IMG/VR virus record: IMGVR_UViG_3300023178_000203
Span: 1-28,378 of that record
Reading direction: 5' to 3' (one strand)
DNA length: 28,378 bases
Origin: a virus
The notes beneath the pieces were generated by a model. The model had not been told where the DNA came from. It did no database searches and saw only the letters and a list, made by a program, of their open reading frames with translations. The stretch's first letter is position 1, and each line of letters opens with the position of its first letter. Shown piece after piece: positions 3,482-28,378 of the stretch. The position numbers were made by a program, and so were the translations under genes.

Positions 3482-3499
3482 CCATAAACTCATAAAGAA

Positions 3500-3510
3500 T
3501 ATATTTATAT
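3500..3510 (+). promoter_or_regulatory. Putative phage late promoter element, copy 2
   Basis: TATATTTATAT, 24 nt upstream of the ATG at 3535, in the 53-bp gap after the lysin gene. Same motif as the other five copies, and the only intergenic gap of this size within the 420-16233 tail block. Confidence 0.6.
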
Positions 3511-3534
3511 TAAGATAAAAGAAAACAATTTATA

Positions 3535-4116
3535 ATGGATACTAAGAAATTAGCAAAATTAATTAAAGTAATTGTAGAAGCTGAAGTGGCTAAAAATCAC
3601 GAAAGATTTCTTACTAAAACCTTTCCTAAGATTTTAGAAGAAGAAGTATCTCGTAGAATGAAAGTTCTATCGGAGGAGAGGGGAGGTGTTGCTGCTTCCT
3701 CCACGCAAATCGTGGAAGAGGAAGTAGACCCATTTCAAATGGCAGAACAAGCACTACAAGAAGAAAGACAACAACCTAAAAAACAGTTTACAAAAAATGC
3801 TGTTTTAAATGAGGTACTAAATAATACAAAACCATTTTCAGCAGAACAAAGAAAAGGTGGAGTTGAACAAAAATCTGTATTAGATAAATTTCAACAACCT
3901 GTAAATGAAAGTATGGATAAAACAGTTTCATTTACTCAAACAACTGCAGGAGGTGGTCTTGAAAGCATGAGAGCTCAAATGGCATCTCAAATGGGTTATG
4001 GTGATATAAAAAGGGGACCAAGTAAAACAGGTCTTGGAGTTCAAACAGGATTGCCTGGATTAGATAGAATTTTAAACAGAGATAATTCAGAACTTGTTAA
4101 AAAATTTAAGAGATAG
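3535..4116 (+). CDS. Hypothetical protein between tail lysin and gp25
   Basis: 193 aa, not recognised. The N-terminal 45 residues are a lysine-rich amphipathic helix (TKKLAKLIKVIVEAEVAKNH). The middle is low-complexity and rich in Gln, Glu and Lys. The C-terminal part has Gly/Met-rich stretches (GGGLESMRAQMASQMGYGD) and ends in a basic KKFKR. No membrane segment or catalytic motif is seen. Its place in the tail block directly before gp25 suggests a baseplate-associated or assembly protein. It has its own late-promoter-like element upstream and no obvious ribosome binding site. Confidence 0.7.
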   Translation: MDTKKLAKLIKVIVEAEVAKNHERFLTKTFPKILEEEVSRRMKVLSEERGGVAASSTQIVEEEVDPFQMAEQALQEERQQPKKQFTKNAVLNEVLNNTKPFSAEQRKGGVEQKSVLDKFQQPVNESMDKTVSFTQTTAGGGLESMRAQMASQMGYGDIKRGPSKTGLGVQTGLPGLDRILNRDNSELVKKFKR

Positions 4117-4125
4117 GAATAACTG

Positions 4126-4557
4126 ATGGCTTATGTTCTTGATAGAAAAGTTGTAAAAGATACCAAAGAATTTAATGACTTTGCGTATGGTATAACCTTG
4201 CCTTTAAAAAGAGGTAATACGGGTTTCTTTGAACAATCTTTTTCTTCATTTGAACAGGCTAAGACAAATTTAAAAAATCTTTTGTTAACTAAACAAGGTG
4301 AAAGAGTAATGCAACCAAACTTTGGTACTGGATTACATTCTCTTTTGTTTGAACAAATGACAGATGATTTTGAAAATAAGTTAACAGAAACCATAACTAA
4401 GAGTGTTGGTTATTGGTTACCATATATAAACATAGAAGAAGTTGATATTAAAATGACTGATGAAATGAAAGATATGCACAGAGCAGATATGAACATTAAG
4501 TTTACAGTTGGTAACCAAATAGAAACACAAGAGATAACATTTAGAATTCAGGAGTAA
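4126..4557 (+). CDS. 25: Baseplate wedge subunit gp25
   Basis: 143 aa (T4 gp25 is 132 aa), matching the GPW/gp25 family. The family signature is present at residues 58-74, GERVMQPNFGTGLHSLLF, in which Glu59-Arg60 and Pro64 form a variant of the EPR core motif needed for sheath initiation. gp25 sits in the inner baseplate, joins gp6 to gp53, and nucleates polymerisation of the contractile sheath. The next gene is gp6, its direct partner in the conserved inner baseplate of contractile injection systems. An AGGA sequence lies 7 nt before the ATG. Confidence 0.93.
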   Translation: MAYVLDRKVVKDTKEFNDFAYGITLPLKRGNTGFFEQSFSSFEQAKTNLKNLLLTKQGERVMQPNFGTGLHSLLFEQMTDDFENKLTETITKSVGYWLPYINIEEVDIKMTDEMKDMHRADMNIKFTVGNQIETQEITFRIQE

Positions 4558-4563
4558 TAAAGG

Positions 4564-6582: not shown

Positions 6583-7646
6583 TGTATTATTTTGTAACGG
6601 CATCAAAAGATGCAACGATTTACTTACAACAACCAACACAAAACACAGGGTTGGATGAGATATTAGAAGTTTCTAAAACTTATTATGGAAACTTAAAAGA
6701 TATTGCTCACACACTAATCAAGTTTGATACAACATCACTTTCTCAATCAATAGTAAGTGGAGATGTAACTATGAGTTCGGCTGAACTTATTCTAAGAGAA
6801 GCTGATTCATCTGATGAAATACCAACAGATTACACAATATATGCATATGCGGTAACCCAATCATGGGATATGGGAATCGGTACAAGATTTGATGAAATCA
6901 GTACAGATGGTGTTTCTTGGGATAAAGTTAGAACAGGTGTTAATTGGATGACACAAGATTCACATTCAGCAGATACTACTGGCTCATTTAATGGTAAAGG
7001 TGGAACTTGGTTTACTGGTTCATATTCAACTCAATCATTTTCATACGAAACAACTGATATTGAAATGGATGTTATTGATACAATGACTTCGTGGATTAGT
7101 GGTTCTATACCAAACGAAGGATTTATTTTAAAATATTCATCTTCATTAGAAAATGATACAAATGATTACGGTCAATTAAAATTCTTTTCAAAAGAAACAA
7201 ATACTATTTACCAACCTAAATTGAGAATTGGTTGGGATGATTCTTCGTTCTCTACTGGCTCTTTAACAGAACTTACCGCTGATGATATTCATGTAACATT
7301 CAAAAGATTAAAGACCAGATATAAGCGTGGAAGTAAACCTGAAATCAGAGTTTTCGGTAGAGAGAAATATCCTCTCAAAACATACACCAACACATATTCT
7401 TACACAGATGTAAAATATTTACCATCTACTACTTATTACCAAATAAAAGATGTAATCACAGAAGAGATAATTATACCATTCTCAGATTACACAAAAGTTA
7501 GTTGTGATTCGAGTGGTAACTATTTTAAATTAAACTTAACAAGCTGGGAATACAATAGAGATTACTATATTGAAATTAAAGTAGATAGGGATGGTGTTAT
7601 AGAATACTTTGTAGATAAGGATTTAACTTTTACAATAGAGAAATAA
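6582..7646 (+). CDS. DNRLRE-like beta-sandwich baseplate protein
   Basis: 354 aa. Residues about 1-220 resemble a DNRLRE/CBM96-type domain. Visible elements are an opening ASKDATIYLQQPTQNTG, then the TLIKFDTTSL strand, a SSAELILREA strand, a YAYAVTQSWD strand and a TSWISGSIPNEGFILKYSS strand. Such domains are common in extracellular and carbohydrate-binding proteins of Bacteroidota and also occur in phage tails. The C-terminal 130 residues are a different beta-rich region. It sits directly after gp6, where T4 has gp7/gp8, so it is probably an outer wedge or fibre-attachment component. The domain call is by pattern memory and should be tested by profile search. The start overlaps the gp6 stop by one base. 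Confidence 0.65.
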   Translation: MYYFVTASKDATIYLQQPTQNTGLDEILEVSKTYYGNLKDIAHTLIKFDTTSLSQSIVSGDVTMSSAELILREADSSDEIPTDYTIYAYAVTQSWDMGIGTRFDEISTDGVSWDKVRTGVNWMTQDSHSADTTGSFNGKGGTWFTGSYSTQSFSYETTDIEMDVIDTMTSWISGSIPNEGFILKYSSSLENDTNDYGQLKFFSKETNTIYQPKLRIGWDDSSFSTGSLTELTADDIHVTFKRLKTRYKRGSKPEIRVFGREKYPLKTYTNTYSYTDVKYLPSTTYYQIKDVITEEIIIPFSDYTKVSCDSSGNYFKLNLTSWEYNRDYYIEIKVDRDGVIEYFVDKDLTFTIEK

Positions 7647-7647
7647 A

Positions 7648-8859
7648 ATGAGTTTACAAGATAGATTTAGAATAGATGAACTTGTTAAAAAAGGTTCAAA
7701 GGCAACGAAGATAGATACATCTAAAGGAATTGTTGTGCGTAAAGTTGATGGAAAGGAAGTAAAACCTGCTTCATTAAAAAAAGATAAACCATTTGGAACT
7801 GAACAAATTAGAGGAAAACAAATACAACCAAAATTAAAAACCGATTTATTAGAACCACAAGAACAAATACAGGAAGAACAAACATCATTTAGTGGTGAAA
7901 CATCAGCTCCTTTAGAAAGACCGTATTACGATGAAGAGCAATTACAAAAGGCAATTGATATAAAAGTTGATGAGTTAATAAAAGAAAAAAAACCACCAAG
8001 AGATAGGTATATTAAATATGAAAAATATGAAGATAAACTTACTGAAATTGAAAGATTAATAAATAAAAATGGTGAGTTAACAGTTGAAAATGCCGATTTA
8101 TCTGCTATAATATCAACACTTGAATCTGAAATATCAGATTTACAAAACCAAGTAATTGCTGCTGAAACATTAACACGAACTGTTCAATCAGAATTTGATG
8201 CTTTAACTAAACGATATGAACAACTATTATCTGATTTCCAAAACTCGGTTTTAAAAGGAACTAAAGAAGGAATAGAAAGAGTATCGTTAACTGCACAAAC
8301 ACGAGGGTTGGGTGCACAAAAAGAAACACTAGCATCTCAATTAGAATCTGAAAAAGAGATTGTTAAATCGTTACAAGCTGCAAATCAAACACTCCAACAA
8401 ACAATTGAAACAAACCAGCAAATTGCTCAACAACAGATTCAGGCAGCAAACCAACAAGTTAAAGCAGCTCAAGCAACAGCATCAACCGCGGCAAACTCTA
8501 AGAAGAAAAAAATTATTTGTAATGAACTTTATCATCAAGGGTATTTACCACAACACATTTGGGATGCGGATGAACGATGGGGTGATAAAAGATTCGTTAC
8601 AGACCCTAAGTTGGTTATTGGATATCAAATGTGGGCAAGAAAAGTTGTGGAGTTTATGAGAAGAAAACCTCAATACACTCCAATTATATATTTCTTATGT
8701 AAACCATGGACAGAATGGATGGCATATGATTTAGGTGTATTACCAAAAAATAATTTAAGAGGACAGTTTACTCAATGGGTGGGTAGATATTTCTCTTATA
8801 TGGTTTATGATTTATATGGTGGAGATAAACTTTACCAAAGATACTTAAACTCTAACTAA
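7648..8859 (+). CDS. Coiled-coil virion protein with conserved C-terminal globular domain
   Basis: 403 aa. Residues 1-110 are charged and low-complexity. About 110-285 is a long coiled coil (LTEIERLINKNGELTVENAD..., then Gln/Ala-rich QQIAQQQIQAANQQVKAAQA). Residues 288-403 form an aromatic-rich domain starting IICNELYHQGYLPQHIWDAD and including GYQMWARKVVEFMRRKP and KPWTEWMAYDLG. I have the impression that domains like this C-terminal one recur in structural proteins of marine T4-like phages, but I know no function for it. The long coil suggests a rod that bridges baseplate parts or fibres. The next gene starts 1 bp after the stop. Confidence 0.7.
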   Translation: MSLQDRFRIDELVKKGSKATKIDTSKGIVVRKVDGKEVKPASLKKDKPFGTEQIRGKQIQPKLKTDLLEPQEQIQEEQTSFSGETSAPLERPYYDEEQLQKAIDIKVDELIKEKKPPRDRYIKYEKYEDKLTEIERLINKNGELTVENADLSAIISTLESEISDLQNQVIAAETLTRTVQSEFDALTKRYEQLLSDFQNSVLKGTKEGIERVSLTAQTRGLGAQKETLASQLESEKEIVKSLQAANQTLQQTIETNQQIAQQQIQAANQQVKAAQATASTAANSKKKKIICNELYHQGYLPQHIWDADERWGDKRFVTDPKLVIGYQMWARKVVEFMRRKPQYTPIIYFLCKPWTEWMAYDLGVLPKNNLRGQFTQWVGRYFSYMVYDLYGGDKLYQRYLNSN

Positions 8860-8860
8860 G

Positions 8861-10918
8861 ATGGCTATAGAAGGATTTAAAGAAATAGTAGATAGAAGAG
8901 GATACAAAGTAGAATCTGAAGATAGAAAAATCTTTGAGAGAGAGATTGGTAAGTCTTATTTCGGTCTTGGTAATGCTGATATGATTGAATTTATATTATT
9001 TGATTCAAATGAAAATCAATTACCACAAGGTGAAGATGGTAAGTTAGTTAGATACATAAACTTAAATGATTCTAATATTAATGAATATTTTATTATTTCA
9101 AATAATAACTTTACAAAAAAATTAAACGGTGCTTCTGAGTTTATAGTTGATATTGAAAAATTAGTAAAGGAAGCTGGGTATTCAAGTGGTATTTTTAAAA
9201 CTCAGGTAACTTTATTAAATAGAAGAGCTGGTTCTGAACCTGGTAGTAATGATAAATTATGGATTCATGAAATTTCACCATCAAGAACTGAAATTAGAGT
9301 TTTACCTTTAAAAAATAAAAAACAACCAAACCCTGATTTAGATTTAAGATATAATTTATTTATTGGAAATTCACAATTTAGAGATGATACGATTTATTAT
9401 GCAAAACAATATATTCAAAACATAACAACACAAAAAGTAATTGATTCTTTTTCTCGAATAAAAGGAACGCAAAAAGATACATCAACTTATCATTCTTTAA
9501 TAAAAAAAGAATTTAAAATTGAAAGTATTGAACTTTTTATTCAAAAAATTAGAGAAAAATTTATTGAATCTATGAATTATTTTATTGATGATAGAGAATG
9601 GAATATTGTAGATTTAAATTATGGTAAGCCAAAAAATAAATTAGATATTGTTGAATTATCGATAAAGACGATACATCAAGTATTCGAACAATCACTTGGA
9701 TTAATTATTCAGTATTATTTACCCAAAAGAACAATACAAGAAGATAATGAATTAACACCAGAACAACAGGTTACATTTGATGAGGTAAAAGAAATTTTGA
9801 AATCGAGTGTATCTAATAATTTATACGAAGCAACTCAGCCTGATAAAATAGATGCTGTTATACGAGGTTGTATGGACCCTGATGCTTTAAATTATAATCC
9901 ACAAGCAAAAGAAGATGATGGGAGTTGTAAATATCAACAAAATGACCCAGACCCAATTGAGATTAAAGGTTGTACGGATGCTAGTGCGTTAAACTACAAT
10001 CCAAAGGCAACACAAGATGATGGAAGTTGTAAATACAAAGATAAAGTTTCACAAAAAACTCAAACGTATTATGTTTGGTCTCAAGTAGCGAGTATAAAAT
10101 ACAAACAAGATGGTGTAATAAAAAATTTACAAGGTATTGAATATGATTCATTTACAATAACATACGATGATAATACTTTTAAATTTAAAGGTGATGTAAG
10201 AACAGTACCGAAAATAAAAGAAATAAAACCTGTACTTGCAAGTTATAGAATTACAAATGTAAGTAAAAAGAAAACGATAGTACAAAGGAATCGTCTAAAA
10301 GAACCATATCTAAGATATCCTGGTGATGAGTTTAGAGGATTTGGATATGGTGATAGAGATAGGTATGGATATGATTACGATAGGTTGGATTACATTGATG
10401 AACCAATAGAAATATTTAAAGGCCAATCAATATCATTTACTTATAAAGATTCAAGTGGAAAACTTAAAACATCAGTTCCTTTGGCACCAAATAGTACAAC
10501 TACTATTTGTGCACAATTAGGTTCTGTGGTAACACCAGCTGGATTAAAAGCAACTCAACTTGGAGCTTGTGGTGGGATATTAACTGATGGTGGTGGGATA
10601 TTAACTGATGATAGAATTGACTTAACCGAAAATGCAAATACTGGTATTGGTGCTGGTGCACTTGGTGGGGTTGAGTTGGATTTAAGTGACCAAAATGAAA
10701 AGGCTTTATTTGATATTGTAACCGATACATATGACCAGGTAAATCAAACATCCACAAAACAATTTTTTGAGGACCAGAACAACAAAGCACTTGAACAATT
10801 TGCACCACAAGAAGAAACACGAGGTCAGAGCACAAGTGGTCAAAGTGCAGGACAAGGAAATTCGGTTAATAGAACATTAGATGGTAAAATAAAGGATAGA
10901 CAAGTAAATCAGATATAG
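8861..10918 (+). CDS. Large tail/baseplate appendage protein with two GCTD-type repeats
   Basis: 685 aa. The N-terminal 200 residues (MIEFILFDSNENQLPQ..., ISPSRTEIRVLPLKNK) look like the anchoring domain of a virion structural protein. Residues 336-358 and 370-392 are two 23-aa cysteine motifs of the form GC.D..A.NYN..A..DDGSC.Y, each with two Cys and an acidic DDG loop that may bind calcium. A beta-rich domain follows at about 395-540, then a short 7-aa tandem duplication (GGILTDG/GGILTDD), then a Gln/Asn/Gly-rich C-terminus. The cysteine motif is widespread in surface and secreted proteins of Bacteroidota, so it hints at the host group. The neighbouring 1768-aa protein has a third copy. Likely role is exposed baseplate or fibre structure. 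Confidence 0.7.
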   Translation: MAIEGFKEIVDRRGYKVESEDRKIFEREIGKSYFGLGNADMIEFILFDSNENQLPQGEDGKLVRYINLNDSNINEYFIISNNNFTKKLNGASEFIVDIEKLVKEAGYSSGIFKTQVTLLNRRAGSEPGSNDKLWIHEISPSRTEIRVLPLKNKKQPNPDLDLRYNLFIGNSQFRDDTIYYAKQYIQNITTQKVIDSFSRIKGTQKDTSTYHSLIKKEFKIESIELFIQKIREKFIESMNYFIDDREWNIVDLNYGKPKNKLDIVELSIKTIHQVFEQSLGLIIQYYLPKRTIQEDNELTPEQQVTFDEVKEILKSSVSNNLYEATQPDKIDAVIRGCMDPDALNYNPQAKEDDGSCKYQQNDPDPIEIKGCTDASALNYNPKATQDDGSCKYKDKVSQKTQTYYVWSQVASIKYKQDGVIKNLQGIEYDSFTITYDDNTFKFKGDVRTVPKIKEIKPVLASYRITNVSKKKTIVQRNRLKEPYLRYPGDEFRGFGYGDRDRYGYDYDRLDYIDEPIEIFKGQSISFTYKDSSGKLKTSVPLAPNSTTTICAQLGSVVTPAGLKATQLGACGGILTDGGGILTDDRIDLTENANTGIGAGALGGVELDLSDQNEKALFDIVTDTYDQVNQTSTKQFFEDQNNKALEQFAPQEETRGQSTSGQSAGQGNSVNRTLDGKIKDRQVNQI
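9866..9934 (+). repeat. GCTD/DDGSC cysteine motif, copy 1
   Basis: 69 nt encoding 23 residues beginning GCMDPDALNYN and ending DDGSCKY, codons 336-358 of the 685-aa protein. Copy 2 starts 102 nt after the start of this one. Confidence 0.85.
9968..10036 (+). repeat. GCTD/DDGSC cysteine motif, copy 2
   Basis: 69 nt encoding GCTDASALNYN...DDGSCKY, codons 370-392 of the same protein. It shares both cysteines, the ALNYNP core and the DDGSC ending with copy 1. Confidence 0.85.
10571..10612 (+). repeat. 21-bp tandem duplication inside the 685-aa gene
   Basis: Two adjacent 21-bp units (10571-10591 and 10592-10612), identical at 20 of 21 positions, encoding GGILTDG then GGILTDD. It keeps the reading frame and looks like a recent slippage or duplication event. 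Confidence 0.9.
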
Positions 10919-10926
10919 GATAGATA

Positions 10927-13900
10927 ATGATTAGACAAGAGTTTGCTATATACGATGATAATTTCAACAACGGATTCAACGAAGGATTCGATGATACTCT
11001 TCGTGTCGATGAGTTTGATTATGGAGTTGGAGGTGGTGGTGGTAGTATCATACGAGGTGGTGGAGGTACTACTATTATAAATGGATGTACAGACTCTAAA
11101 GCAAAAAACTATAATAGATTTGCAACAAGAGATGATGGTAGCTGTAGATATAATCCTCCAGCGTTACCAGTATTACTTGATAAAAGTAAAAGTATTACAT
11201 TTACTATTGGGGTACAAAATGGAAAAGCAGCTAACGTATTTGTTGATGGTGTTTCTAATACAGTTACTAAGGCAGGATTAACTTTTACTGAAAAGGAATT
11301 ATTAACTCCTAAATTAATAAATGTAGTTTCAAATAACAAAGAAAAATCAATTGAAACGTATCGAATCAAAACATTACATAAAACAATATTTAAAAATATT
11401 AAACCCGTACTTGAAAAAGATTTTGATGATGATACGGTAATTAGAGATTTTGAAGATAGAATTAAATTTCGTTCTGATATAAATTTTAGACCAGATTTTA
11501 ATATTTTTGAATCTGGTAGACAACCTATTTTTAATATTGGTGGATTTGGAAACACAAGAATTCCTGCTATTGATTATGATAGACCAACAACAAGACCAAC
11601 TCTTGGAATTGCACCGTATATACCACCAACAAACTTTAAGAAACCATCTTTAACATTTGGAACGTTTGAGTGGACTACTTATGAGTTAATAATTGAAAAA
11701 AGAGATACAAATGGTTCATTTATGCCATTTCCTACACCAAAGCCTCAAAAAATAAATGGAATAGAATTAATTGAAAAGGCAAGAGTAGTACCTTTATATT
11801 TTAGATTTCCTCAACTTCCTCCTCCACTTCCTATTGTAAATGTATTTGATATAAAAATAAAAGGAGATGTAAGTAGTGATGAGATTATTAGATATACTAC
11901 TTCTGATGGACAAACTGGTTTAGTTCGTAATGGATTAAATCAAATAACAGTTAATAAAGTTGGAAAAGATACATCTTGTTATATACAATTTAATGGTATT
12001 GGTATAAATGATTATTCTCATCAAGTAGAATATAAGTACGAAAACAATACAGATAAAACAAGAGGAGAAACTAAAAAAGGAATTGATTCTACTTTTAATT
12101 TATCTGTTGGTGAAAACTTTTTTAAAGTAACCGCAAATAAACAAGTATTTACTCCAGACCCAAGTTCACCTACAATTAAGGTAGAAAATAATAATGTAAT
12201 TTTTAACATTGCTAATTCTGATGATGTTAACGTTGTTTATGATACAACATTTGCAGATAAAGTAATTTATACATTAGGTAATGTAGAACGAGAAATAGGA
12301 CCAAGTGGTGTAATTAATTTACAAAACTCAGATTTTCCAAATGGTGTTGGTAGGTATGTACTATATTTACAACCTGTTTCAGCACGAGGTGGTAGTGGTG
12401 AACTTGAAAAAGTTATCATTACGGTAGAAAGTAAAGCTTATCTACCTGGTCCTGATATTACTCATATTAACTTTCCTCAAAATATCAAAGGTGCTGATTT
12501 TAAAGAATACAATATTGATTTTGAGGTTTCTTGGCAATCTATAAACACAAACTATATCTTAGTATATGCTGGTAAAGTTAGTGAAAGTAATTTAATTAAA
12601 AAAATCCCACCATCAGGAAACATTTCATTAAATGTAGCTGAAGTTATAAAAATTATTGGTAGTGATTTAGATGAAGATAGGGATGTTACTCAATTTAAAC
12701 TTTTATTCATTCCTTATAATGAAGAGGGTGATGAAAGAACAGCAGGTAAAACTGAAGAAGCTACTATTACGTTTGATAAAGGAGATTTAAAATTAAGAAG
12801 AGCAAATGTAGTAAATGATTTAAAATCTGCATTTATTTCAAATAGAAATGTTTCTGAATTTGATGATTACGTTTCACCACTATTAACACATTATTTACAT
12901 CTTGGTGATGGTGATAATAAATTAATTGGTACCTGGGCAATTGATGATAGAACTTTTTCTGAAGAATATAGAGATGAAGAAGATAATCAAATAAAATATA
13001 GAAATATTGAACCATCTCTTGTATTAAAATTATATGAACCTCTACCAATAACTATAAATGTTAATGATAAGGTTTGGATTTCTAAAGTTCATTCAATCCC
13101 ATTAATTGACCAAATAACAATTATTGATGATGTTACAAAACATTGTACACCTTTAACACCAAACTTTGATTTAGAAGTTGGAGATGATATCGGATATCAG
13201 ATTCTTGATGATTTAATTGCAAGTGGTTCAACGTCATCAACACAAGTTATTAATGAGTTTGTTTCATCAAGTGAATTTTCATTAGAAAACTTAAATATAA
13301 ATTTTGTATCATCATCTACAATGGTAAGTGGTGGAGTTGTTGTTGATACTACCAACGATTACAATTGGAAAGATTTTGTAAAATATTCATCAGCAGTAGA
13401 AAGAGTAGAAAATTTCTATTACAAAATAAAACTAATTAATCAATACGAAGCAAGATACGATTTATTAACATCTGGTTCAGATTGGACAGGTTCTGTTGCG
13501 GTAACAAATGAAGCAAACAAACAACTTGAAAAAATAAATGATGTTAAAAAAGGATTCGATGCTTTTGAAAAATTCTTATTTACATCGTCATCTGCCGATA
13601 ACTTTACATATCCAAAAACAAACAATACTGGTAGTTTAATAAATGCATTTAGTTCATCTGCTGTATCTTGGTATAATGGTGCTATAGAATCTGCAGAAAT
13701 ATACGATGAATCAAATACATCAAGATTAACATATAACTTACCAAAACATATACAAGAAGATGATAAGGGTCAAGAGTTCATTTTATTCTTTGATATGATT
13801 GGTCAACATTATGATATCTTATGGACTCACATAAAAGGATTCTCACAATCTAAAAAATTAGAACACAAGTTCGATGGTGGTATTACAAATGATTTAGTTT

Positions 13901-16233
13901 ATCATATGTTAGAATCTCTTGGTTGGGATGCTGATATGGGAGTTCAATCTCAATTACTTTGGGAATATGCCTTCGGACAACACTCAGATGGAACTCAGAT
14001 AACCGAGATGAGTGGTAAGAGTAGACAACAAGAAGTTTGGAGAAGATTACTAAATAACTTACCATATCTTTATAAACACAAAGGAACTAAAAGAGCTTTA
14101 CATGCGGCAATGTCGTGTTACGGTGTACCCGCTTCTTTATTAACAGTAATCGAATTTGGTGGACCAAATGATGTAGATACTTCTGGTACTACTAAATTTA
14201 CATTCGAAGATAGAACTGCAGCAATTAACATAAGTGGTTCTCAGAGAATAGATGTACCTTGGAAAGAATATTCAGGTACTTCAGAATATCCAAATTCAGT
14301 TGAATTAAGATTTAATACAGAAGTTAGAGGAAATCAACAACTAATTAGTGGTAGTGATTGGAGTTTAAATTTATTAGCAGATACTGGTTCATTAGCTAAG
14401 ATTCAATTAGTGGTAGGTTCTGAATCAGCATCTACTGATACAATTCCATTCTTTAATGATGAATATACACAAATAGTTGTAAACAGAGAAACGGGTAGTT
14501 CTGATACATTTGAAGTATTTGTAAAAGAAGGATTCCAGGAAAGAATTAGAAACCAAGTTTCTGCTTCATTAACTACATCAGAAAAAGGATGGACGAGTGG
14601 TTCATATATTTCAGTCGGTGGAACTGATATAACAGGTTCAGTTGATGAATTCAGATTATGGACAACTGCTATTTCTGAATCTAAAATAGATAACCACACT
14701 TTATTACCAGATGCAATCGATGGTAATCATGTTTCATCTTCAACTGAAGATTTAATTTTTAGATTAGATTTTGAATATCCAAAAAATAGAAGTACGAGTG
14801 GAGACCCAAATATTAAGAATGTTTCTATAAATCGTTCTTATGGAGAATCTTATGCAACCGCATCTTTATTTGATAATAATACTACCTATCCATATCACTA
14901 CACACCATATGATAGAACAGTAACTGCGGATGTACCTTCAAGTGGATTTAACTTTAGTAACAAAGTAAGATTTGAAACTCAAACAAAGATTACAGAATTA
15001 TCTTATAGAAGTAGAGCAACTAAAAAATCGTATGACCAAGCACCAATCGATTCGGATAGATTAGGATTATTCTTCTCACCAATCAAAGAGATTAATATGG
15101 ATATCCTTAAATCTCTTGGTTCATTTAATATTGATAATTATATTGGTAATCCACAAGATGAATATTCTGATGAATATACTGAATTAAAACAACTAAGAAA
15201 TTATTACTTTGATAGATATAATTTAAATTTATACGAATATATTCAACTTGTAAGATATATTGATAAATCATTATTTGAAACACTTGAATCTCTTGTACCC
15301 GCAAGAGCAAAAGTATCAAGTGGATTATTGATTGAACCACATATTCTTGAAAGAAGTAAAACTAAATGGAACAGACCTACATCTGAAAAGAAAGATTATT
15401 CAACAATAATAGATGTAGAAAGTGATGTTAATGTAAGTTCAACAAACCCACAATATTCAATGAGTTTGGATGTTGAACAAGATGTTAACTTAAGTGGAAC
15501 ATCACCATTTTATTCATCTACCATCAATGCAGAGGCCGATGTTAATCTAACAGGTACAGCTCCTTTTTATTCTTCAAGTATAAACACAGAAGAAGATATT
15601 AATTTAATTGGAGAAATGACCGTAAACTCTGGCTCTGATATGGGTGGTATTGTATTTAACATTGATGCAAAAATTACAGGTTCTATACAAGGTCAATATG
15701 ATTCTACAAAATATCAACAAATAGGAATGGACCCTGATTCATTATCAAGATTAGGATTTGGATTATATGGTGAAAATGGAAATTCACAGAGAACTTATAT
15801 AGATGCATTTGGTAATGTTCAAAAAGATAGAGTTAAGATATATTTATTAAAACAATCTTATACTGAAGATGTACCGCAAAATAGAGATTTCTTTGATGCA
15901 TCAAGAGGTAGAGAATTTGTAACACAAACAAAATACAGATACAAAGTAAATATATTACCATTTACAGGTTCAGATGGAAATGAGATGAGTTCTTCTGTTG
16001 GGGGTGATATTGTTGAAGTAACACCACTTGATGGATACTTCCCACTACATTATAGAAATGTTGGTGATTTGACAAGTGGATTGGAAAATTCATTTCATAA
16101 TGGTTCAAAACAAACTGCAGCTACAACTACCGATGGTGGTTCACCTGTACAAACATTTACAACAAATCCTAACACATTGAGAGTAAACGATAGTGGTAGA
16201 GGAAGTGGAGAACCAATTTTAGAAGTAGATTAA
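10927..16233 (+). CDS. Giant multidomain tail appendage protein (1768 aa)
   Basis: Longest gene in the window, 8 bp after the previous one. The N-terminus is Gly-rich (GVGGGGGSIIRGGGG), followed by a third GCTD/DDGSC motif at residues 53-75 and a beta domain. Residues about 270-620 are a series of beta-sandwich-like segments. About 950-1080 has a helical stretch with SLGWDADMGVQSQLLWEYAF and EVWRRLLNNLPYLYKHKGT, reminiscent of gpI-type baseplate/fibre-connector proteins. Residues about 1109-1280 look like a concanavalin/LamG-like lectin fold (QLISGSDWSLNLLADTGS, GSYISVGGTDITGSVDEFRL). At 1491-1566 there are four 19-residue tandem repeats. Expected role is a baseplate or fibre protein that may contact host glycans. 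The exact T4 counterpart, if any, is not clear. Confidence 0.7.
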   Translation: MIRQEFAIYDDNFNNGFNEGFDDTLRVDEFDYGVGGGGGSIIRGGGGTTIINGCTDSKAKNYNRFATRDDGSCRYNPPALPVLLDKSKSITFTIGVQNGKAANVFVDGVSNTVTKAGLTFTEKELLTPKLINVVSNNKEKSIETYRIKTLHKTIFKNIKPVLEKDFDDDTVIRDFEDRIKFRSDINFRPDFNIFESGRQPIFNIGGFGNTRIPAIDYDRPTTRPTLGIAPYIPPTNFKKPSLTFGTFEWTTYELIIEKRDTNGSFMPFPTPKPQKINGIELIEKARVVPLYFRFPQLPPPLPIVNVFDIKIKGDVSSDEIIRYTTSDGQTGLVRNGLNQITVNKVGKDTSCYIQFNGIGINDYSHQVEYKYENNTDKTRGETKKGIDSTFNLSVGENFFKVTANKQVFTPDPSSPTIKVENNNVIFNIANSDDVNVVYDTTFADKVIYTLGNVEREIGPSGVINLQNSDFPNGVGRYVLYLQPVSARGGSGELEKVIITVESKAYLPGPDITHINFPQNIKGADFKEYNIDFEVSWQSINTNYILVYAGKVSESNLIKKIPPSGNISLNVAEVIKIIGSDLDEDRDVTQFKLLFIPYNEEGDERTAGKTEEATITFDKGDLKLRRANVVNDLKSAFISNRNVSEFDDYVSPLLTHYLHLGDGDNKLIGTWAIDDRTFSEEYRDEEDNQIKYRNIEPSLVLKLYEPLPITINVNDKVWISKVHSIPLIDQITIIDDVTKHCTPLTPNFDLEVGDDIGYQILDDLIASGSTSSTQVINEFVSSSEFSLENLNINFVSSSTMVSGGVVVDTTNDYNWKDFVKYSSAVERVENFYYKIKLINQYEARYDLLTSGSDWTGSVAVTNEANKQLEKINDVKKGFDAFEKFLFTSSSADNFTYPKTNNTGSLINAFSSSAVSWYNGAIESAEIYDESNTSRLTYNLPKHIQEDDKGQEFILFFDMIGQHYDILWTHIKGFSQSKKLEHKFDGGITNDLVYHMLESLGWDADMGVQSQLLWEYAFGQHSDGTQITEMSGKSRQQEVWRRLLNNLPYLYKHKGTKRALHAAMSCYGVPASLLTVIEFGGPNDVDTSGTTKFTFEDRTAAINISGSQRIDVPWKEYSGTSEYPNSVELRFNTEVRGNQQLISGSDWSLNLLADTGSLAKIQLVVGSESASTDTIPFFNDEYTQIVVNRETGSSDTFEVFVKEGFQERIRNQVSASLTTSEKGWTSGSYISVGGTDITGSVDEFRLWTTAISESKIDNHTLLPDAIDGNHVSSSTEDLIFRLDFEYPKNRSTSGDPNIKNVSINRSYGESYATASLFDNNTTYPYHYTPYDRTVTADVPSSGFNFSNKVRFETQTKITELSYRSRATKKSYDQAPIDSDRLGLFFSPIKEINMDILKSLGSFNIDNYIGNPQDEYSDEYTELKQLRNYYFDRYNLNLYEYIQLVRYIDKSLFETLESLVPARAKVSSGLLIEPHILERSKTKWNRPTSEKKDYSTIIDVESDVNVSSTNPQYSMSLDVEQDVNLSGTSPFYSSTINAEADVNLTGTAPFYSSSINTEEDINLIGEMTVNSGSDMGGIVFNIDAKITGSIQGQYDSTKYQQIGMDPDSLSRLGFGLYGENGNSQRTYIDAFGNVQKDRVKIYLLKQSYTEDVPQNRDFFDASRGREFVTQTKYRYKVNILPFTGSDGNEMSSSVGGDIVEVTPLDGYFPLHYRNVGDLTSGLENSFHNGSKQTAATTTDGGSPVQTFTTNPNTLRVNDSGRGSGEPILEVD
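11083..11151 (+). repeat. GCTD/DDGSC cysteine motif, copy 3
   Basis: 69 nt encoding GCTDSKAKNYN...DDGSCRY, codons 53-75 of the 1768-aa protein. Same 23-residue length and cysteine placement as the two copies in the preceding gene. Confidence 0.85.
15397..15624 (+). repeat. Four tandem 57-bp repeats
   Basis: Four in-frame units of exactly 57 bp (starts 15397, 15454, 15511, 15568), each encoding 19 residues that begin with Tyr-Ser. They share the pattern YS..I(D/N).E.D(V/I)N(L/V).G, for example YSMSLDVEQDVNLSGTSPF and YSSTINAEADVNLTGTAPF. The last unit has diverged most (ends GEMTV). They probably build a short beta-repeat rod near the C-terminus. Confidence 0.9.
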
Positions 16234-19624: not shown

Positions 19625-20197
19625 TTGAGTTTACTTAAAAATTGTGCTCAGAAATGGGCATTTATTCATATTCCTAAAACAGGTGGAACTTCCATAAGTT
19701 CTGTCCTTCACGAAATAGACGGGACAGAAAAAGTTACAATGCACGATTCTGTTCGTGCTTTAGATGAGGTTAAGGATTACTTTATTTTTACATTTGTAAG
19801 AAATCCTTTCACACGATTACAATCAGCTTACCAACATGGTGTGAGAAAAAATGAATACACAACATCCTTTTCAGAATTTTTAAAATCAGATTTATCATCT
19901 AATATTTGGATGATGCCTCAATATTATTTTGTTACTGCTGGTTCTTCTGAAAATAAAAAAGTTTCATTTATAGGAAAATATGAAAATTTAAAAGAAGATA
20001 CTTTAAAAATATTTAAAAAACTCAATATAGATAAACAGTTACCTCATCTAAATAACAATCCTATTTACGAAAGACATCCAGGTTTAAAACAAGAAGATTA
20101 TTATAAATCTTTTTATACCGAAGAGTGGATGAAGGATTGGGTAAGAGAAAGGTATGAAAATGATTTCAAAATTTTTAACTATGACATGGACATATAA
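19625..20197 (+). CDS. Sulfotransferase family protein
   Basis: 190 aa with the two hallmarks of PAPS-dependent sulfotransferases. The 5'-phosphosulfate loop is HIPKTGGTS (residues 15-23), with Lys18 as the key binding/catalytic residue. The 3'-phosphate site is FVRNPFTRLQSAYQ (residues 57-70), with Arg59 and Ser67. This form is closest to the Golgi/carbohydrate sulfotransferase group, which transfers sulfate from PAPS to sugar hydroxyls. Total length is short but both ends look complete. The start is TTG at 19625; no in-frame ATG precedes the P-loop and no ribosome binding site is visible, so translation may depend on the upstream gene. Substrate is unknown; host surface glycan or a virion glycan are possibilities. 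Confidence 0.85.
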   Translation: MSLLKNCAQKWAFIHIPKTGGTSISSVLHEIDGTEKVTMHDSVRALDEVKDYFIFTFVRNPFTRLQSAYQHGVRKNEYTTSFSEFLKSDLSSNIWMMPQYYFVTAGSSENKKVSFIGKYENLKEDTLKIFKKLNIDKQLPHLNNNPIYERHPGLKQEDYYKSFYTEEWMKDWVRERYENDFKIFNYDMDI

Positions 20198-21401: not shown

Positions 21402-22346
21402 ATGCTATCACACCACGAAAAGCAATCGGTTATAAACATCTTAGATGATGTATTAGGACCTGGTACATCTTTAAAGGGGGATGAACAAGCACATTATTGT
21501 CCTTTTTGTCATCACCACAAAAAGAAGTTACAAGTAAATCTACAAACTCAACAATGGCATTGTTGGGTATGTGATGCTAAAGGAAAACGCATCCAACGGT
21601 TATTAAAAAGATTGCATGTAGATTCTCGAAAGTTAAAAAAGATATACGAAATCTATGGTGATGATTATGTTGTATATAGTAACAATACCGAAGATGAAAA
21701 GGTAGAGTTAAGGTTACCTAACGAGTTTTGTTCACTACTAAAAGAACCAAAGGGAAAAATAAACCCTCTGTTCAGAAAGGTAATGGAATATGCAAAACAA
21801 AGAGGAATTACCACAGAAGATATTAGAAGATATAATATCGGGTATTGTGATACTGGTCATTATGCCAATCGTATTATTATTCCATCTTATGATTCTGATA
21901 ATCGACTCAATTACTTCATCGCACGTTCTGTATTCGATGAGGAAAAATTTAAGTATAAGAATCCGCCGGTTTCGAAAAATGTTATCATGTTTGAAAACCA
22001 AATAAATTGGAATGAACCAATTACCTTAGTAGAGGGAGTTTTTGATGCAATGGCAGTGAAGAGAAATGCAATCCCTCTACTTGGTAAGTTTGTACCAAAA
22101 ACTTTAAATGATACTATATATAAAAAGGGTGTTAAGAGTATAAACATTTTACTCGATGAAGATGCTCAAGAACAAGCGTTATATTACACTATGCAATTCC
22201 AAAATCAAGGAATCACTACAAAAAATATTAAACCATCTGAAAAAGATGCTGGTGAAATGGGGTTCTCCCAAGTAAATAAAATTCTAAAAAATACAGAAGA
22301 AACTAACTTTAGTGATATAATATCGCAAAAATTATTAGGTTTATGA
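21402..22346 (+). CDS. 61: DNA primase, DnaG/gp61 type
   Basis: 314 aa (T4 gp61 is 342 aa). A zinc ribbon is formed by Cys33, Cys36, Cys54 and Cys57 (YCPFC...WHCWVC). A central segment at about 130-190 contains the RNA-polymerase-like basic region. The TOPRIM fold carries Glu211 in LVEGVFDAMAVKR and the acidic pair Asp252/Asp254 in ILLDEDAQ, which coordinate catalytic metal. The enzyme makes RNA primers for lagging-strand synthesis with the replicative helicase; no helicase domain is fused here. A host-type promoter lies directly upstream. The stop overlaps the start of the recombination gene by 4 bp (ATGA), so both are translationally coupled. It could also be called a generic phage primase; the T4 gene number is by functional analogy. 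Confidence 0.88.
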   Translation: MLSHHEKQSVINILDDVLGPGTSLKGDEQAHYCPFCHHHKKKLQVNLQTQQWHCWVCDAKGKRIQRLLKRLHVDSRKLKKIYEIYGDDYVVYSNNTEDEKVELRLPNEFCSLLKEPKGKINPLFRKVMEYAKQRGITTEDIRRYNIGYCDTGHYANRIIIPSYDSDNRLNYFIARSVFDEEKFKYKNPPVSKNVIMFENQINWNEPITLVEGVFDAMAVKRNAIPLLGKFVPKTLNDTIYKKGVKSINILLDEDAQEQALYYTMQFQNQGITTKNIKPSEKDAGEMGFSQVNKILKNTEETNFSDIISQKLLGL

Positions 22347-25300
22347 TAATAAACAAAGTTTATCATTTGGCAGATTTACATATTAGAAATCTCCAAAGAC
22401 ACAAAGAATACAAATTAGTATTTAAAAAATTCTTAAAACAAGTAAAAGAAGATAAAATCGAGGATTCCCTCATTTATATTGCTGGTGATATTGCTCACGC
22501 AAAAACAGAGATGTCACCCGAACTCGTACACGAAATAAGTTGGTTTCTCACCGAGTGTGCGAAGTTAAGAGAAACTGTGTTAATCACAGGTAACCACGAT
22601 TGTAACTTAAACAACTCACATAGATTAGATGTTCTTACTCCGATTATTGAAAATCTTGGAAATAATCGTATTCACTATCTTAGAGATACTGGTGTCTATA
22701 ATATCCATAATCTTACTTTCGTTGTCTATTCTATATTGGATGATAAAGAAAACTGGCCAAATGGTAATGATGTAGAGGGAGAAAATAAAATTGTTTTATT
22801 TCATGGACCAGTAAACAAAGCACAAACTGATATTGGTTATACCGTTTCATCTAACTCATTTCAAGTGGGTATGTTTGATGGATTCGATATGGCCATGTTG
22901 GGTGATATACATAAAAGACAAACATTTGGTGAAGGATATGAGTGGGTTGCCTATGCAGGTTCAATGATTCAACAGAATCATGGAGAACTGCTTGAAAATC
23001 ATGGTTACTTACTTTGGGATATACCCACTCGAACCTTTACCGAACATCATATACATAATGATTATGGATTCTTAACTGTTGATGTGGTTGATGGTAAGAT
23101 TCCAAAATGGGTGTATGATGAAGTTGGTACTAAACTTCCAAAGTATCCAAGATTAAGATTGAGATTTACTAATACCGAAGCAAGTGATATGAAACGATGT
23201 ATCACAGAACTAAAGAAGTTATTCAAAGTTGCTGAAGTTACGGTAACAAGAACCGATACAATCGGACAACTAAAAACAAATAAAAAGGTAAACAAAAACA
23301 TAGTTGGTGATGTTAAAAATGAAACCTTCCAAAACTCACTTATTAGAGATTACTTAGAAAGACAATACCTATTAGAATCAGATGAATTAGATAAGATAGA
23401 AGAAATCAATACAGAACTAAATGGACAAATAGATACATCGGATATTGCCGGTAATATTTTATGGACACCAAAATCTTTTGAGTTCTCTAATATGTTCTCG
23501 TATGGTGAAGGTAATTTAATCCGATTTGATAAAGCACAAGGTATCATGGGTATCTTTGCTCCTAATGCTTCAGGTAAATCTTCTATGTGGGATGCACTCT
23601 CTTTTTGTATCTACGATAAGACATCTCGTACAACCTTTGCTAAGAATGTTTTAAACAATCGTAAGGATAAGTTCTATTGTAAGTTTAACTTCGAGATAGA
23701 TGGGGTAGATTACTTTATTGAGAGAAGAGCTAAGTATGTTAGAAAAGGAACATCGGTTAAAGTAGATGTAGATTTTTGGAAAGAAGATGGTGGAGTTATA
23801 GAATCACTTAATGGAGAACAAAGAAAAGATACAAATAAGAATATCGAAAAGTTCTTAGGTAAGTTTGAAGATTTTGTTTTAACTGCTCTTTCCCTACAAG
23901 GAAACAATGCACTCTTTATTGATAAATCACAATCAGAAAGAAAAGAAATACTTTCTCAATTTATTGGAGTAGATATTTTTGATAAATTATATCAAAAGGC
24001 TGCAGATGAGAATCGAGATAATGCAACACTTATCAGAAAATTCAAGTCCGATGATTTTACTCAGAAGTTGGCCGACATTAGTGAACAATTAAAAACCGAC
24101 AAAAACGAATACAAACTTTTAGAGTTAAATCAAAAATCTTTAAAAGAAGAAGAGGATTTACTAAATAGACAAATCATTAAATTAAACGAGAAAATCGTAA
24201 AGTTAAATGCTGATAGTGGTGTTTCAATAGAAGAATTAGAAAAAAGATTGAAAAACCTTGAAACCAAAAAAGAAGAACTCTTAATAACAAAAGGCTCGGT
24301 TCAAGAAAGAATCACATTTAGAGAGGAATTACAAATCACTTTAGATGAAATACTTGACCAATTTGATGAAGAAGATTTAGAAGAGGGGATTGGTAAGTTA
24401 AAAGATGCAAAGGAAAAGTTAAGAGATGTAGAATCTTCTATCGATAAAATCAATATTAAAAAAGATTCTTTGTATGAAAGAAAAGACCATTTAGATAAAC
24501 ACAAATATAATGAAGAATGTGATATCTGTATGGAAAACTCACAAACTATTTTAGAAGAAAAAGAAAAGGTAGAATCAGAAATATCAGAGTATGAAGATTT
24601 GTTTCAAGAAAATGATAAGATTCGTTTATCTTTAATGTTATTGATAGATTCATTAAAGGGGTATGAAGATGAGTGGAGTAAATATCAAGAAGCAAAAGAA
24701 AAAGAAGATAAACTTGATAGAGAAATTTCTCAACTTATCAACAAGTTATCAACAACTGAAACTGAAGAAATTCGTTTAAGTACACAAATTGACCAACAAG
24801 AGAAGTTAATCGAAGAATATTACAAGAACGAAGAACAAATCAAGATAAATAAACAAATCAGAGAAGAGATTACAGGTGTTCGTGATAAACTCAAAATTGT
24901 TAAAGATGATTTAAAATCTGTTAATGGTGATATTCTTAAATTAAATGGAAAAGTTTCAGCACTTCAAAATCAAAAAGAAACCATTGAAGATAGAATCCAA
25001 GAAGTAAAAGAATTAGAAGAACAATCTAAACTATTTGATTTTTATTTGAATGCACTTTCTAAAGATGGTGTATCGTATGAGTTAATCGAGAAATCCCTAC
25101 CAATGATTGAAGGTGAGGTGAATAATATCTTAGCACAAATCGTAGAGTTTGGAATGCAATTAGAGATTGATGGTAAGAACATCAATGCGTATCTTGTATA
25201 TGGAGACCAGAGATGGTCTTTAGAGATGTGTAGTGGTATGGAGAGATTTATTAGTGGTTTAGCCATTAGAGTTGCTCTAATCAATGTATGTAACCTACCA

Positions 25301-25501
25301 CGACCTAACTTCCTTGTGATAGATGAAGGATTTGGTACTTTGGATAGTGAAAACCTACAATCTTTATTTATGTTGTTTACATACCTTAAAACTCAGTTTG
25401 ATTTTGTTATGGTAATATCACACATCGATTCTATGAGAGATGTTGTAGATGGTCTTATTGAGATAAAGAAAATAAATGGATTCTCAAATGTTAAGTTTTA
25501 A
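22343..25501 (+). CDS. Fused Mre11-like nuclease and Rad50-like ATPase (gp47-gp46 fusion)
   Basis: 1052 aa in one uninterrupted frame. The N-terminal part (about 1-340) is an SbcD/Mre11/gp47 phosphoesterase: HLADLHI (Asp11, His13), AGDIAH (Asp49), TGNHD (Asn84, His85, Asp86), FHGPV and LGDIHKRQ. The part from about 372 is SbcC/Rad50/gp46: a Walker A variant APNASGKSS (406-414), a long coiled coil with the zinc hook CDIC (Cys726, Cys729), a second coil, ABC signature SGMER (964-968), Walker B FLVIDEGFGTLD (Asp994, Glu995) and H-loop VISHID. The complex resects DNA ends for recombination-dependent replication and degrades host DNA. No in-frame ATG lies in the linker at a position that would restart a complete gp46. 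Separate gp47 and gp46 in T4 total about 900 aa. Confidence 0.93.
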   Translation: MIINKVYHLADLHIRNLQRHKEYKLVFKKFLKQVKEDKIEDSLIYIAGDIAHAKTEMSPELVHEISWFLTECAKLRETVLITGNHDCNLNNSHRLDVLTPIIENLGNNRIHYLRDTGVYNIHNLTFVVYSILDDKENWPNGNDVEGENKIVLFHGPVNKAQTDIGYTVSSNSFQVGMFDGFDMAMLGDIHKRQTFGEGYEWVAYAGSMIQQNHGELLENHGYLLWDIPTRTFTEHHIHNDYGFLTVDVVDGKIPKWVYDEVGTKLPKYPRLRLRFTNTEASDMKRCITELKKLFKVAEVTVTRTDTIGQLKTNKKVNKNIVGDVKNETFQNSLIRDYLERQYLLESDELDKIEEINTELNGQIDTSDIAGNILWTPKSFEFSNMFSYGEGNLIRFDKAQGIMGIFAPNASGKSSMWDALSFCIYDKTSRTTFAKNVLNNRKDKFYCKFNFEIDGVDYFIERRAKYVRKGTSVKVDVDFWKEDGGVIESLNGEQRKDTNKNIEKFLGKFEDFVLTALSLQGNNALFIDKSQSERKEILSQFIGVDIFDKLYQKAADENRDNATLIRKFKSDDFTQKLADISEQLKTDKNEYKLLELNQKSLKEEEDLLNRQIIKLNEKIVKLNADSGVSIEELEKRLKNLETKKEELLITKGSVQERITFREELQITLDEILDQFDEEDLEEGIGKLKDAKEKLRDVESSIDKINIKKDSLYERKDHLDKHKYNEECDICMENSQTILEEKEKVESEISEYEDLFQENDKIRLSLMLLIDSLKGYEDEWSKYQEAKEKEDKLDREISQLINKLSTTETEEIRLSTQIDQQEKLIEEYYKNEEQIKINKQIREEITGVRDKLKIVKDDLKSVNGDILKLNGKVSALQNQKETIEDRIQEVKELEEQSKLFDFYLNALSKDGVSYELIEKSLPMIEGEVNNILAQIVEFGMQLEIDGKNINAYLVYGDQRWSLEMCSGMERFISGLAIRVALINVCNLPRPNFLVIDEGFGTLDSENLQSLFMLFTYLKTQFDFVMVISHIDSMRDVVDGLIEIKKINGFSNVKF

Positions 25502-25728: not shown

Positions 25729-28378
25729 ATGGCTATAATTAAAAAATTTTCACCCTTTCAAAACTTATCATCCTTTCAAGTATTTTTAAATGATACTGAA
25801 AGAACTTCTCAGTACTTTAAAATTACAGAGTTTGAAGATACGCTTACTGGTGGTAAGAATGGATTTTTAATTGAAGGTTCTGAATATTTAAAAGAATCAA
25901 CAGAAGTAAAAGTAGAATTACTTGATGTTGAAAACAATCCTATATACTTTGAACCTGGTGATGGTATTCCCGAATATTACGAAGGTATCTCTAAATTAGT
26001 ATCAGTTCATGTTTATGATGATACTCCGATTGGAACTGGTAAAATTACAATACTTGGTGAACTTAAAAATTATATAGATGAAAATGGTGCGGTTGTTCCT
26101 GTTCCTGATGAGTGGAAGGGAATCTATAATGTAAAGTGGGAAAGAACCTTCCAAGTAAATAAAAATTTAAATAACGAAACTATTGTTCGGTTTTACAAAA
26201 GACCTATTGTTAATATAACAGAACTTGTAAAACCAATATTTTCTAAATCAATACCAACAGTAACCGATACAGGATATGCACATGGTATTTCTGAAACACC
26301 AATTGATGGAACTGATATTAGAAATTGGAGAACTGGTACTATATATAGATTAAGAAGAACGAGTGGTACTTGGGATAGAGATGTAGATGAAAATACTATT
26401 ACGTTTACATCACCAAGTTTTACCGCTAATATCGTAGAAGTTTTAAACGATACAGATGTTTTGGTTGATGTACCTTATACGATAAATAATTTAGTATCAA
26501 ACTTTACATCAGGCTCATATTCGGTTTCTTATGCTGATTTTCAAAACGAAGTTATTGGTGAATCCACCTTAACAGGTTCTTTTGCTAAAATTGATATTAC
26601 ACAACTAAAAACTTTTGTTGGTGATGTAGCAAGAGTAAAGGTATTTAGAAAATCAAGAAACTCTGTTGGTGATTTTCAATTTGTACAAGAATCAAAATTA
26701 GAATCAACAGAATTACTTCGTGATGTAACAACACCTTCTAATACTGAAATTCCTTATGGAAGATTTGATGAATCAAACTTATCTACATATTGGATTACAT
26801 CATCAGCTGACCATGAAGTATCAATAGATTCTTCTGTTTTATCTCAGGCTGTTAAGTTTGATTATGATTCAGTTCAAGGTGGTGTACAAAGATTAATTAC
26901 ATCTCAATCTTTTTCAATATCTAAAGATGTAGAATATACATTAAACTTTAGAACTCTTTTAAGTGGTAGTTTAGATGATAGTGGTAAAAGTGTAAGAGCA
27001 TTCTTTAGTTCTTCAAACTTTACACAAGATTTCCTAACAGCAAGTGGTTCAGCTATTTATAGAACAAGACAAAATGTATCACAAAATATATTATCAGAAA
27101 ATACAGGAGATGCACATTTAGTATTTGAAGTAAAAGGTGATGATTGGTATGTTTCAAATGTAAGTTTAAAAAATGCACAAGATACTTCTTTCTCACCAGA
27201 TGAATTTACTTTAATACAAGATATTCCAAGAAAACTAGCATCTGAAACTTTTGATTTCCGTTTTGAGTTTTATGATATAAACAACAATTATATTCCTGTT
27301 GATGTAACTGCAGTTGGAGTATTTGATGGTGGTAATGATTTCCCAACAAGTGGTAAATTACTAACATTTGAATCAGATAGAAATGCATTTAGATTTACAA
27401 GTGGTTCAATAGGAAGTCCACCATTTCAACAACTACAATTTAAAGTAACTCAAAATAACCTAACAGGTTCGGTGTCATTTGCTTCATCTGCATTTGATGA
27501 AGATGGTAACTATATTGACCCATCGAGTTATGGTGGTACATATCCTGGTACTCTTACATCGGTTACACCAGCTGGTGCTATTTTACGAATTGCTGATTTT
27601 AGTGGTAGTGATGAATCTGTTATAGTAGGTTCTATTGTTTATACCGCCTCTTTAGAAGGATTGGAAGAATTTGAAACTGTTTATAGATTAGAAGATGGAG
27701 ATAATGCTCCTACCTTATTGGTAACTTCGAATGCAAATCAGTTTACATATGAACCAACTTCATTAATTCCAAAACCAGTTGGGCAATCAATTACAGTAAG
27801 AGCTCAGAGAAAAAATTTAGCATCACTTGTAACACCAATTACGGTGAATAGTGGTAGTAACAGACCTGCACTAACTTATGTAGATACTGTTGGTGGAATT
27901 GATACTTATACAATTTCTGCTACAGAATTTTCATCATCCTTCTCAGCAAACTCATTTGATGAAGTAACTTATCAATTTACTGGTTCTGATGTTTTTGGTA
28001 TTGAACAAACTGATGAAATAACTTTATCTAAGGTAGTAAACTTTGATGGTGTTTCTATAACTCTTTCTAATGAATCAACTGCATTTAGGTCAAATGGTCA
28101 AGGATTAATTTTAGATTCATTTGATAGTGGAGATGGTGAAGTTGAAGTAAGAATTGCAGATAAAGAAATAGACCATAGTAATGGATTATCATCACCAAAT
28201 ACATTTGATATTGTTTCTGCAACGGCAACGAATGTAACAGAAGCTTATTCATCTTACTTAACAAATCAGTATGGTATTAACGCAATGAGTGCAGATAGTG
28301 GTTCTCTTGTATTAAATATTTCATATCTTGCAGGTGATAATTCAACTACTCAATCTTTCCAAAAGAAAGTAAATTATA
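25729..28378 (+). CDS. Large tail fibre/appendage protein, 3' end outside window
   Basis: Open from the ATG at 25729 to the window end: 883 complete codons with no stop seen. The protein begins MAIIKKFSPFQNLSSFQVFL. Its first 190 residues include SKLVSVHVYDDTPIGTGKIT and KWERTFQVNKN, a module that looks like the attachment domain of phage baseplate/fibre proteins. The rest is beta-rich with many Ser/Thr/Gly turns; about 280-640 is mixed and may hold a carbohydrate-binding sandwich. About 768-835 (ITLSNESTAFRSNGQ...FDIVSATATN) resembles a repeat-like domain seen in fibre proteins of T4-related phages. Likely host-recognition or virion surface protein. A late-promoter-like element lies directly upstream and no ribosome binding site is visible. 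Confidence 0.8.
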   Translation, partial: MAIIKKFSPFQNLSSFQVFLNDTERTSQYFKITEFEDTLTGGKNGFLIEGSEYLKESTEVKVELLDVENNPIYFEPGDGIPEYYEGISKLVSVHVYDDTPIGTGKITILGELKNYIDENGAVVPVPDEWKGIYNVKWERTFQVNKNLNNETIVRFYKRPIVNITELVKPIFSKSIPTVTDTGYAHGISETPIDGTDIRNWRTGTIYRLRRTSGTWDRDVDENTITFTSPSFTANIVEVLNDTDVLVDVPYTINNLVSNFTSGSYSVSYADFQNEVIGESTLTGSFAKIDITQLKTFVGDVARVKVFRKSRNSVGDFQFVQESKLESTELLRDVTTPSNTEIPYGRFDESNLSTYWITSSADHEVSIDSSVLSQAVKFDYDSVQGGVQRLITSQSFSISKDVEYTLNFRTLLSGSLDDSGKSVRAFFSSSNFTQDFLTASGSAIYRTRQNVSQNILSENTGDAHLVFEVKGDDWYVSNVSLKNAQDTSFSPDEFTLIQDIPRKLASETFDFRFEFYDINNNYIPVDVTAVGVFDGGNDFPTSGKLLTFESDRNAFRFTSGSIGSPPFQQLQFKVTQNNLTGSVSFASSAFDEDGNYIDPSSYGGTYPGTLTSVTPAGAILRIADFSGSDESVIVGSIVYTASLEGLEEFETVYRLEDGDNAPTLLVTSNANQFTYEPTSLIPKPVGQSITVRAQRKNLASLVTPITVNSGSNRPALTYVDTVGGIDTYTISATEFSSSFSANSFDEVTYQFTGSDVFGIEQTDEITLSKVVNFDGVSITLSNESTAFRSNGQGLILDSFDSGDGEVEVRIADKEIDHSNGLSSPNTFDIVSATATNVTEAYSSYLTNQYGINAMSADSGSLVLNISYLAGDNSTTQSFQKKVNY

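Follow-up and report, generated by a model that had tools for sequence, protein, structure and literature searches.

A one-chain SbcD-SbcC (Mre11-Rad50-like) protein encoded by a tailed phage: an example of the R555-type fusion

We found that the window, a 28,378-nucleotide stretch of viral DNA (positions 1 to 28,378 of IMG/VR record IMGVR_UViG_3300023178_000203), carries on its plus strand a single gene (22343..25501; 1052 aa, stop codon included in the coordinates) whose product unites an SbcD/Mre11-like nuclease with an SbcC/Rad50-like ATPase. In most phages and bacteria, these two subunits, which process DNA ends, are separate proteins. Our prediction, with a probability of about 0.83, is of a tailed-phage Mre11-Rad50/SbcDC nuclease in a single chain, which would assemble into an M2R2 head, resect DNA ends for recombination-dependent replication and belong to a widespread aquatic R555-like lineage. 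The fusion itself is genuine and well conserved, makes biological sense and had been foreseen in the literature.

The 3159-nt reading frame (translation of 22343-25501, plus strand) has no internal stops, and its two halves were recognized by separate profiles. The N-terminal half matches Pfam Metallophos (residues 5-191, E 5.5e-8) and the C-terminal half AAA_23 (residues 382-618, E 1.9e-11), both over their curated cut-offs, with further significant matches, below the curated cut-offs, to the NCBIfam families TIGR00619 sbcd (5-88) and TIGR00618 sbcc (376-646). A phmmer search against PDB sequences linked the C-terminal half to M. jannaschii Rad50 and E. coli SbcC, and a 68-sequence profile recovered both SbcC/Rad50 and SbcD/Mre11 chains from the PDB, with no single solved chain spanning both halves in that search. 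The assignment of the N-terminal half to SbcD/Mre11 and of the C-terminal half to SbcC/Rad50 thus bears out the first-pass annotation, which had placed both nuclease and ATPase motif sets in one frame, and confirms at the level of sequence profiles that the product is a genuine SbcD-SbcC fusion in a phage. Its plus-strand layout runs from a phosphoesterase core (residues 1-238, 22343..23056) through the Mre11 capping-domain position (residues 239-322, 23057..23308; placed from the structural model and the domain order in PMC3175470), a probable helix-loop-helix Rad50-binding domain (residues 327-362, 23321..23428) and a short tether (residues about 363-373, 23429..23461) to ATPase lobe I (residues 373-541, 23459..23965), an antiparallel coiled coil (residues 542-905, 23966..25057) and ATPase lobe II (residues 906-1052, 25058..25498).

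The nuclease core displays DLH (11-13), GD49, GNHD (83-86), H154 and GDIH (187-190), i.e., phosphoesterase motifs I-V are all present, except that the first His of motif V (GHxH) is replaced by Asp. This Asp188 changes a predicted metal ligand, so the nuclease chemistry may differ, and one could envisage a protein that keeps the Mre11-Rad50 fold with little nuclease activity and works for the most part by tethering DNA or bridging its ends, driven by ATP. Such a role would agree with the invariance of Asp at this position (68/68 aligned clade proteins), which is His in canonical enzymes and in the separate phage pairs. However, we regard it as improbable: the same 68 proteins show little or no variation at D11, H13, D49, N84, H85, H154 and H190, as would be expected of a working active site, and Asp is itself a common metal ligand. 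The predicted nuclease is coupled to an ATPase with the complete set of SbcC/Rad50 features, namely Walker A (APNASGKS, 406-413), the Q-loop (Q519), a coiled coil with a CxxC hook (CDIC, 726-729), the signature (SGME, 964-967), Walker B (FLVIDE, 990-995) and the H-loop (H1027). The odd Walker A (APNASGKSS) remarked on in the first-pass annotation is real and inherited: its first position is Ala in 61 of the 68 clade proteins and Gly in seven, while Gly411 and Lys412 are invariant, and since this form is conserved through the clade it is not a sign of decay. The signature Met (M966) is found in 64/68, as opposed to S[EA]GE in the separate phage pairs, and the two hook cysteines are retained in 67/68 and 68/68.

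The junction was examined in an AlphaFold2 model computed from a 68-sequence alignment (mean pLDDT 82), whose pTM of 0.46 means that the relative placement of its domains is not to be trusted; a weaker first model (pLDDT 66.9), computed from 30 close sequences and now superseded, contained the same helices. Between the capping region and the ATPase, the model features predicted helices at 327-341 and 346-362. At the corresponding place in T. maritima Mre11, a helix-loop-helix holds Rad50 at the base of its coiled coil (PMC3175470), and residues 327-362 are probably the equivalent element by which the Mre11 half grips Rad50. Consequently, residues 335-372, initially taken as the linker, are mostly accounted for by these helices, leaving an unstructured tether of only about 11 residues (about 363-373). 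The tether is variable in sequence (mean column entropy 2.09 bits vs 1.29 in ABC lobe I) and near-constant in length (12 residues between 361 and W374 in 62/68); 9-12 residues have been estimated to bridge a 28 Å gap in such fusions (PMC3175470). As in the R555 type, a probable helix-loop-helix is kept between nuclease and ATPase, followed by bridging residues. With a helix pair in the Mre11 docking position and a tether of bridging length, the ordinary docking mode seems, on the model, to be preserved in the fusion. The suggestion that the linker forms part of the docking site is accordingly replaced by one of a probable docking helix-loop-helix followed by a variable tether; nor does the covalent link fix stoichiometry, as had been proposed, because the ordinary complex of separate proteins is already M2R2, i.e., 1:1, and is unchanged in this respect by fusion.

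Two scans of IMG/VR yielded 158 loci with relatives of the gene, 115 of them non-identical. The window is a 28-kb metagenome fragment, which on its own might suggest an assembly or frameshift artefact joining two separate genes. We rejected this explanation, whose probability we consider negligible, on the grounds of the single frame in these loci and the substitution pattern at the join: residues 300-420 are crossed in one frame without a stop in 158/158 loci, and dN/dS for the stretch 326-385 is 0.06-0.23 between the window protein and six relatives, i.e., the join is under purifying selection. Moreover, the fusion is a single CDS in the cultured phages Mel-JY01, pT24, PTm1, PAU and MA9V-1, whose genomes are complete. 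The fused form is the rule among related phages, and the two-gene arrangement that close relatives would have shown had the join been spurious was seen in none of the 158 loci. Among more divergent loci, 29 of 30 have one long frame.

The exception (IMGVR_UViG_3300014208_000346, 2483-5723) has overlapping frames of 224 and 860 aa, split not at the join but after motif V, with no inserted gene; either a frameshift error or a genuine split could account for this. At nearly the same place, a different interruption is seen in the 484-kb phage LR756508.1, where a 305-aa frame (6671-7588) breaks the fused gene (5950-10175 of locus L002, which covers 116577-132742) immediately past nuclease motif V. 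This frame has TnsA-like and HNH-endonuclease profile matches; by these matches the insert is a predicted homing-endonuclease-like gene that cuts the coding sequence in two. An Rfam search for an intron at this interruption gave no match.

The gene adjoins a DnaG-type primase (21402..22346, plus strand; phrog_47, 2.5e-48), which lies directly upstream and shares an ATGA overlap with it. A primase homologue is present in 162/171 loci, and is upstream of the fusion in those inspected, including Mel-JY01 and LR756508; in Bacillus phage BSP14 and Staphylococcus phage Stab23, which have separate genes, the order is SbcD-SbcC, then primase. Across ten related contigs of 123-289 kb, which are possibly incomplete, there is one AAA_23 match each, within the fused frame, with no separate SbcC detected and RecA/UvsX in seven of the ten. 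The tailed phages that carry the fused enzyme seem to have no other SbcC. Some related contigs also have extra metallophosphoesterase frames of 217-275 aa, shorter than SbcD. The window itself contains T4-type baseplate genes, a few genes past which is a 1768-aa frame (10927-16233) with no Pfam or PHROG match. It further encodes a sulfotransferase-like protein (19625-20197; Pfam Sulfotransfer_2 1.4e-18, phrog_3347) and, downstream of the fusion, a long frame open at its 3' end (25729-28377), which likewise matches nothing in Pfam or PHROG. Many relatives among loci L173-L191 have a long frame 3' of the fusion too.

The primase neighbor, the sole AAA_23 protein in the ten contigs and RecA in 7/10 fit T4-like recombination-dependent replication, and by analogy with gp46/gp47 the most likely function is DNA-end resection in this process. 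We infer the assembly, cis docking, enzymatic action and replication role of the fused protein as follows. Two fused chains would dimerize through their nuclease and ATPase halves to form the usual M2R2 head, in which the helix-loop-helix (327-362) would grip a coiled-coil base, most simply that of its own chain, with the tether of about 11 residues leading from it to the ATPase. The head would close on ATP binding and open on hydrolysis, giving DNA ends access to the nuclease; the 3' single strands so produced would feed recombination-dependent replication, as with gp46/gp47 in T4. Alternatively, the enzyme might act mainly in defense, anti-defense or host-DNA degradation: ATPase heads of the Jet and Lamassu defense systems are among the PDB fold matches of the model, and T4 gp46/gp47 are annotated as also needed for host-DNA degradation. 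We hold this to be very unlikely, given the place of the fusion next to a primase in much of the lineage, and since no other AAA_23 protein was found in the ten large relatives. The finding also has a wider bearing: long contigs and complete phage genomes now confirm the suspicion, drawn in 2011 from short environmental reads, that tailed phages are the source of many of the abundant R555-like fusions in aquatic metagenomes. A one-chain Mre11-Rad50 would in addition be handy for structural and enzymatic work, as its nuclease and ATPase are inseparable.

In a tree of 33 fused and six separate sequences (T4, S-SKS1, S-CAM9, BSP14, Stab23 and E. coli), the fused phage proteins fall on one side of a branch and the separate ones on the other (SH-aLRT 98). 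This favors, without proving, a single origin of the fusion among the phages sampled, given the quick method, the small number of separate pairs and the length of some branches; none of the fused sequences in the tree came from giant viruses, plasmids or eukaryotes. The thirteen fusions studied in 2011 did not form one group (PMC3175470). It is conceivable, albeit rather doubtful, that the SbcDC fusions found in aquatic tailed phages, in jumbo phages of Bacteroidota and Sphingomonas and in relatives of Mimivirus, which would be marked by the motif V Asp and SGME, all descend from one ancient fusion, with the gene passed between bacteriophages and protist giant viruses. No bacterial homologues were recovered by tblastn in one scan of genome contigs, which used only two peptide patterns and says little on distant relatives; plasmids gave partial ATPase matches only, and a plasmid search with the protein of a 735-kb phage as query gave no match. 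A 1009-aa protein of Listeria phage LMTA-57 (BFVD A0A068CB47) aligned nearly full length to the fused model and is possibly a further fusion; the Bacillus and Staphylococcus relatives of LMTA-57 examined have separate genes.

Mre11/Rad50 fusions have been reported from Mimivirus (R555), Bacillus phage 0305phi8-36, plasmids, bacteria and eukaryotes (Yoshida, Claverie and Ogata 2011, PMC3175470). From viral metagenomes of aquatic origin, the same study described R555-like fusions that share scaffolds with phage primases, suggested that many such sequences are phage-derived, and discussed the helix-loop-helix and tether of the fusions (PMC3175470). The fusion is thus not new in kind, phage and aquatic-virus examples being already published; no later accounts of phage fusions were found in literature searches that covered few subscription journals and preprints.

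Compared by the description in that paper, R555 shares with the window protein the Mre11-like N-terminal and Rad50-like C-terminal halves, the helix-loop-helix region with a short tether, an Asp at the position of P. furiosus Mre11 His206 (Asp242 in R555; PMC3175470), and the setting in aquatic viruses with primases on the same scaffolds; it differs in being a 1351-aa protein of a giant virus of protists rather than a 1052-aa protein of a tailed phage. Fold searches of the model point the same way, in that its best BFVD matches are predicted giant-virus fusions of the R555 type, led by Tupanvirus (E 2e-75, 26% identity over 1308 columns), with Harvfovirus, Yasminevirus, Terrestrivirus and Catovirus near the top and pT24 and PTm1 lower down. 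The fused "metallo-phosphoesterase" proteins of Tenacibaculum phages pT24 and PTm1, Chryseobacterium phage MA9V-1 and Sphingomonas phage PAU are also encoded by one CDS with the same domain order and lie on the same side of the tree, but they are longer (1301-1326 aa) and very divergent, start their Walker A with the canonical Gly and, over the stretches read, have no annotated primase beside the gene. T4 gp47/gp46 and the other phage SbcD/SbcC pairs comprise the same two enzymes, with the nuclease gene before the ATPase gene and a similar combined length (899-986 aa); they differ in their separate genes, GHxH motif V and S[EA]GE signature, and the fused window protein stands across the SH-aLRT 98 branch from them. 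E. coli SbcCD and the archaeal and thermophile Mre11-Rad50 complexes (PDB 6s6v, 7yzo, 3qg5, 3av0) share the fold of both halves but consist of two chains; among the PDB fold matches of the model are heads of Rad50/SbcC as well as T. maritima Mre11 (3qg5, 3tho). SbcCD enzymes are nucleases that need ATP and Mn2+ and act on ends and hairpins of DNA. The window gene is a full-length example of the known R555-type fusion and adds new details: a tether of near-constant length, a D188 that never varies in the clade sample, a broad occurrence in tailed phages and a single branch of the fused phage proteins.
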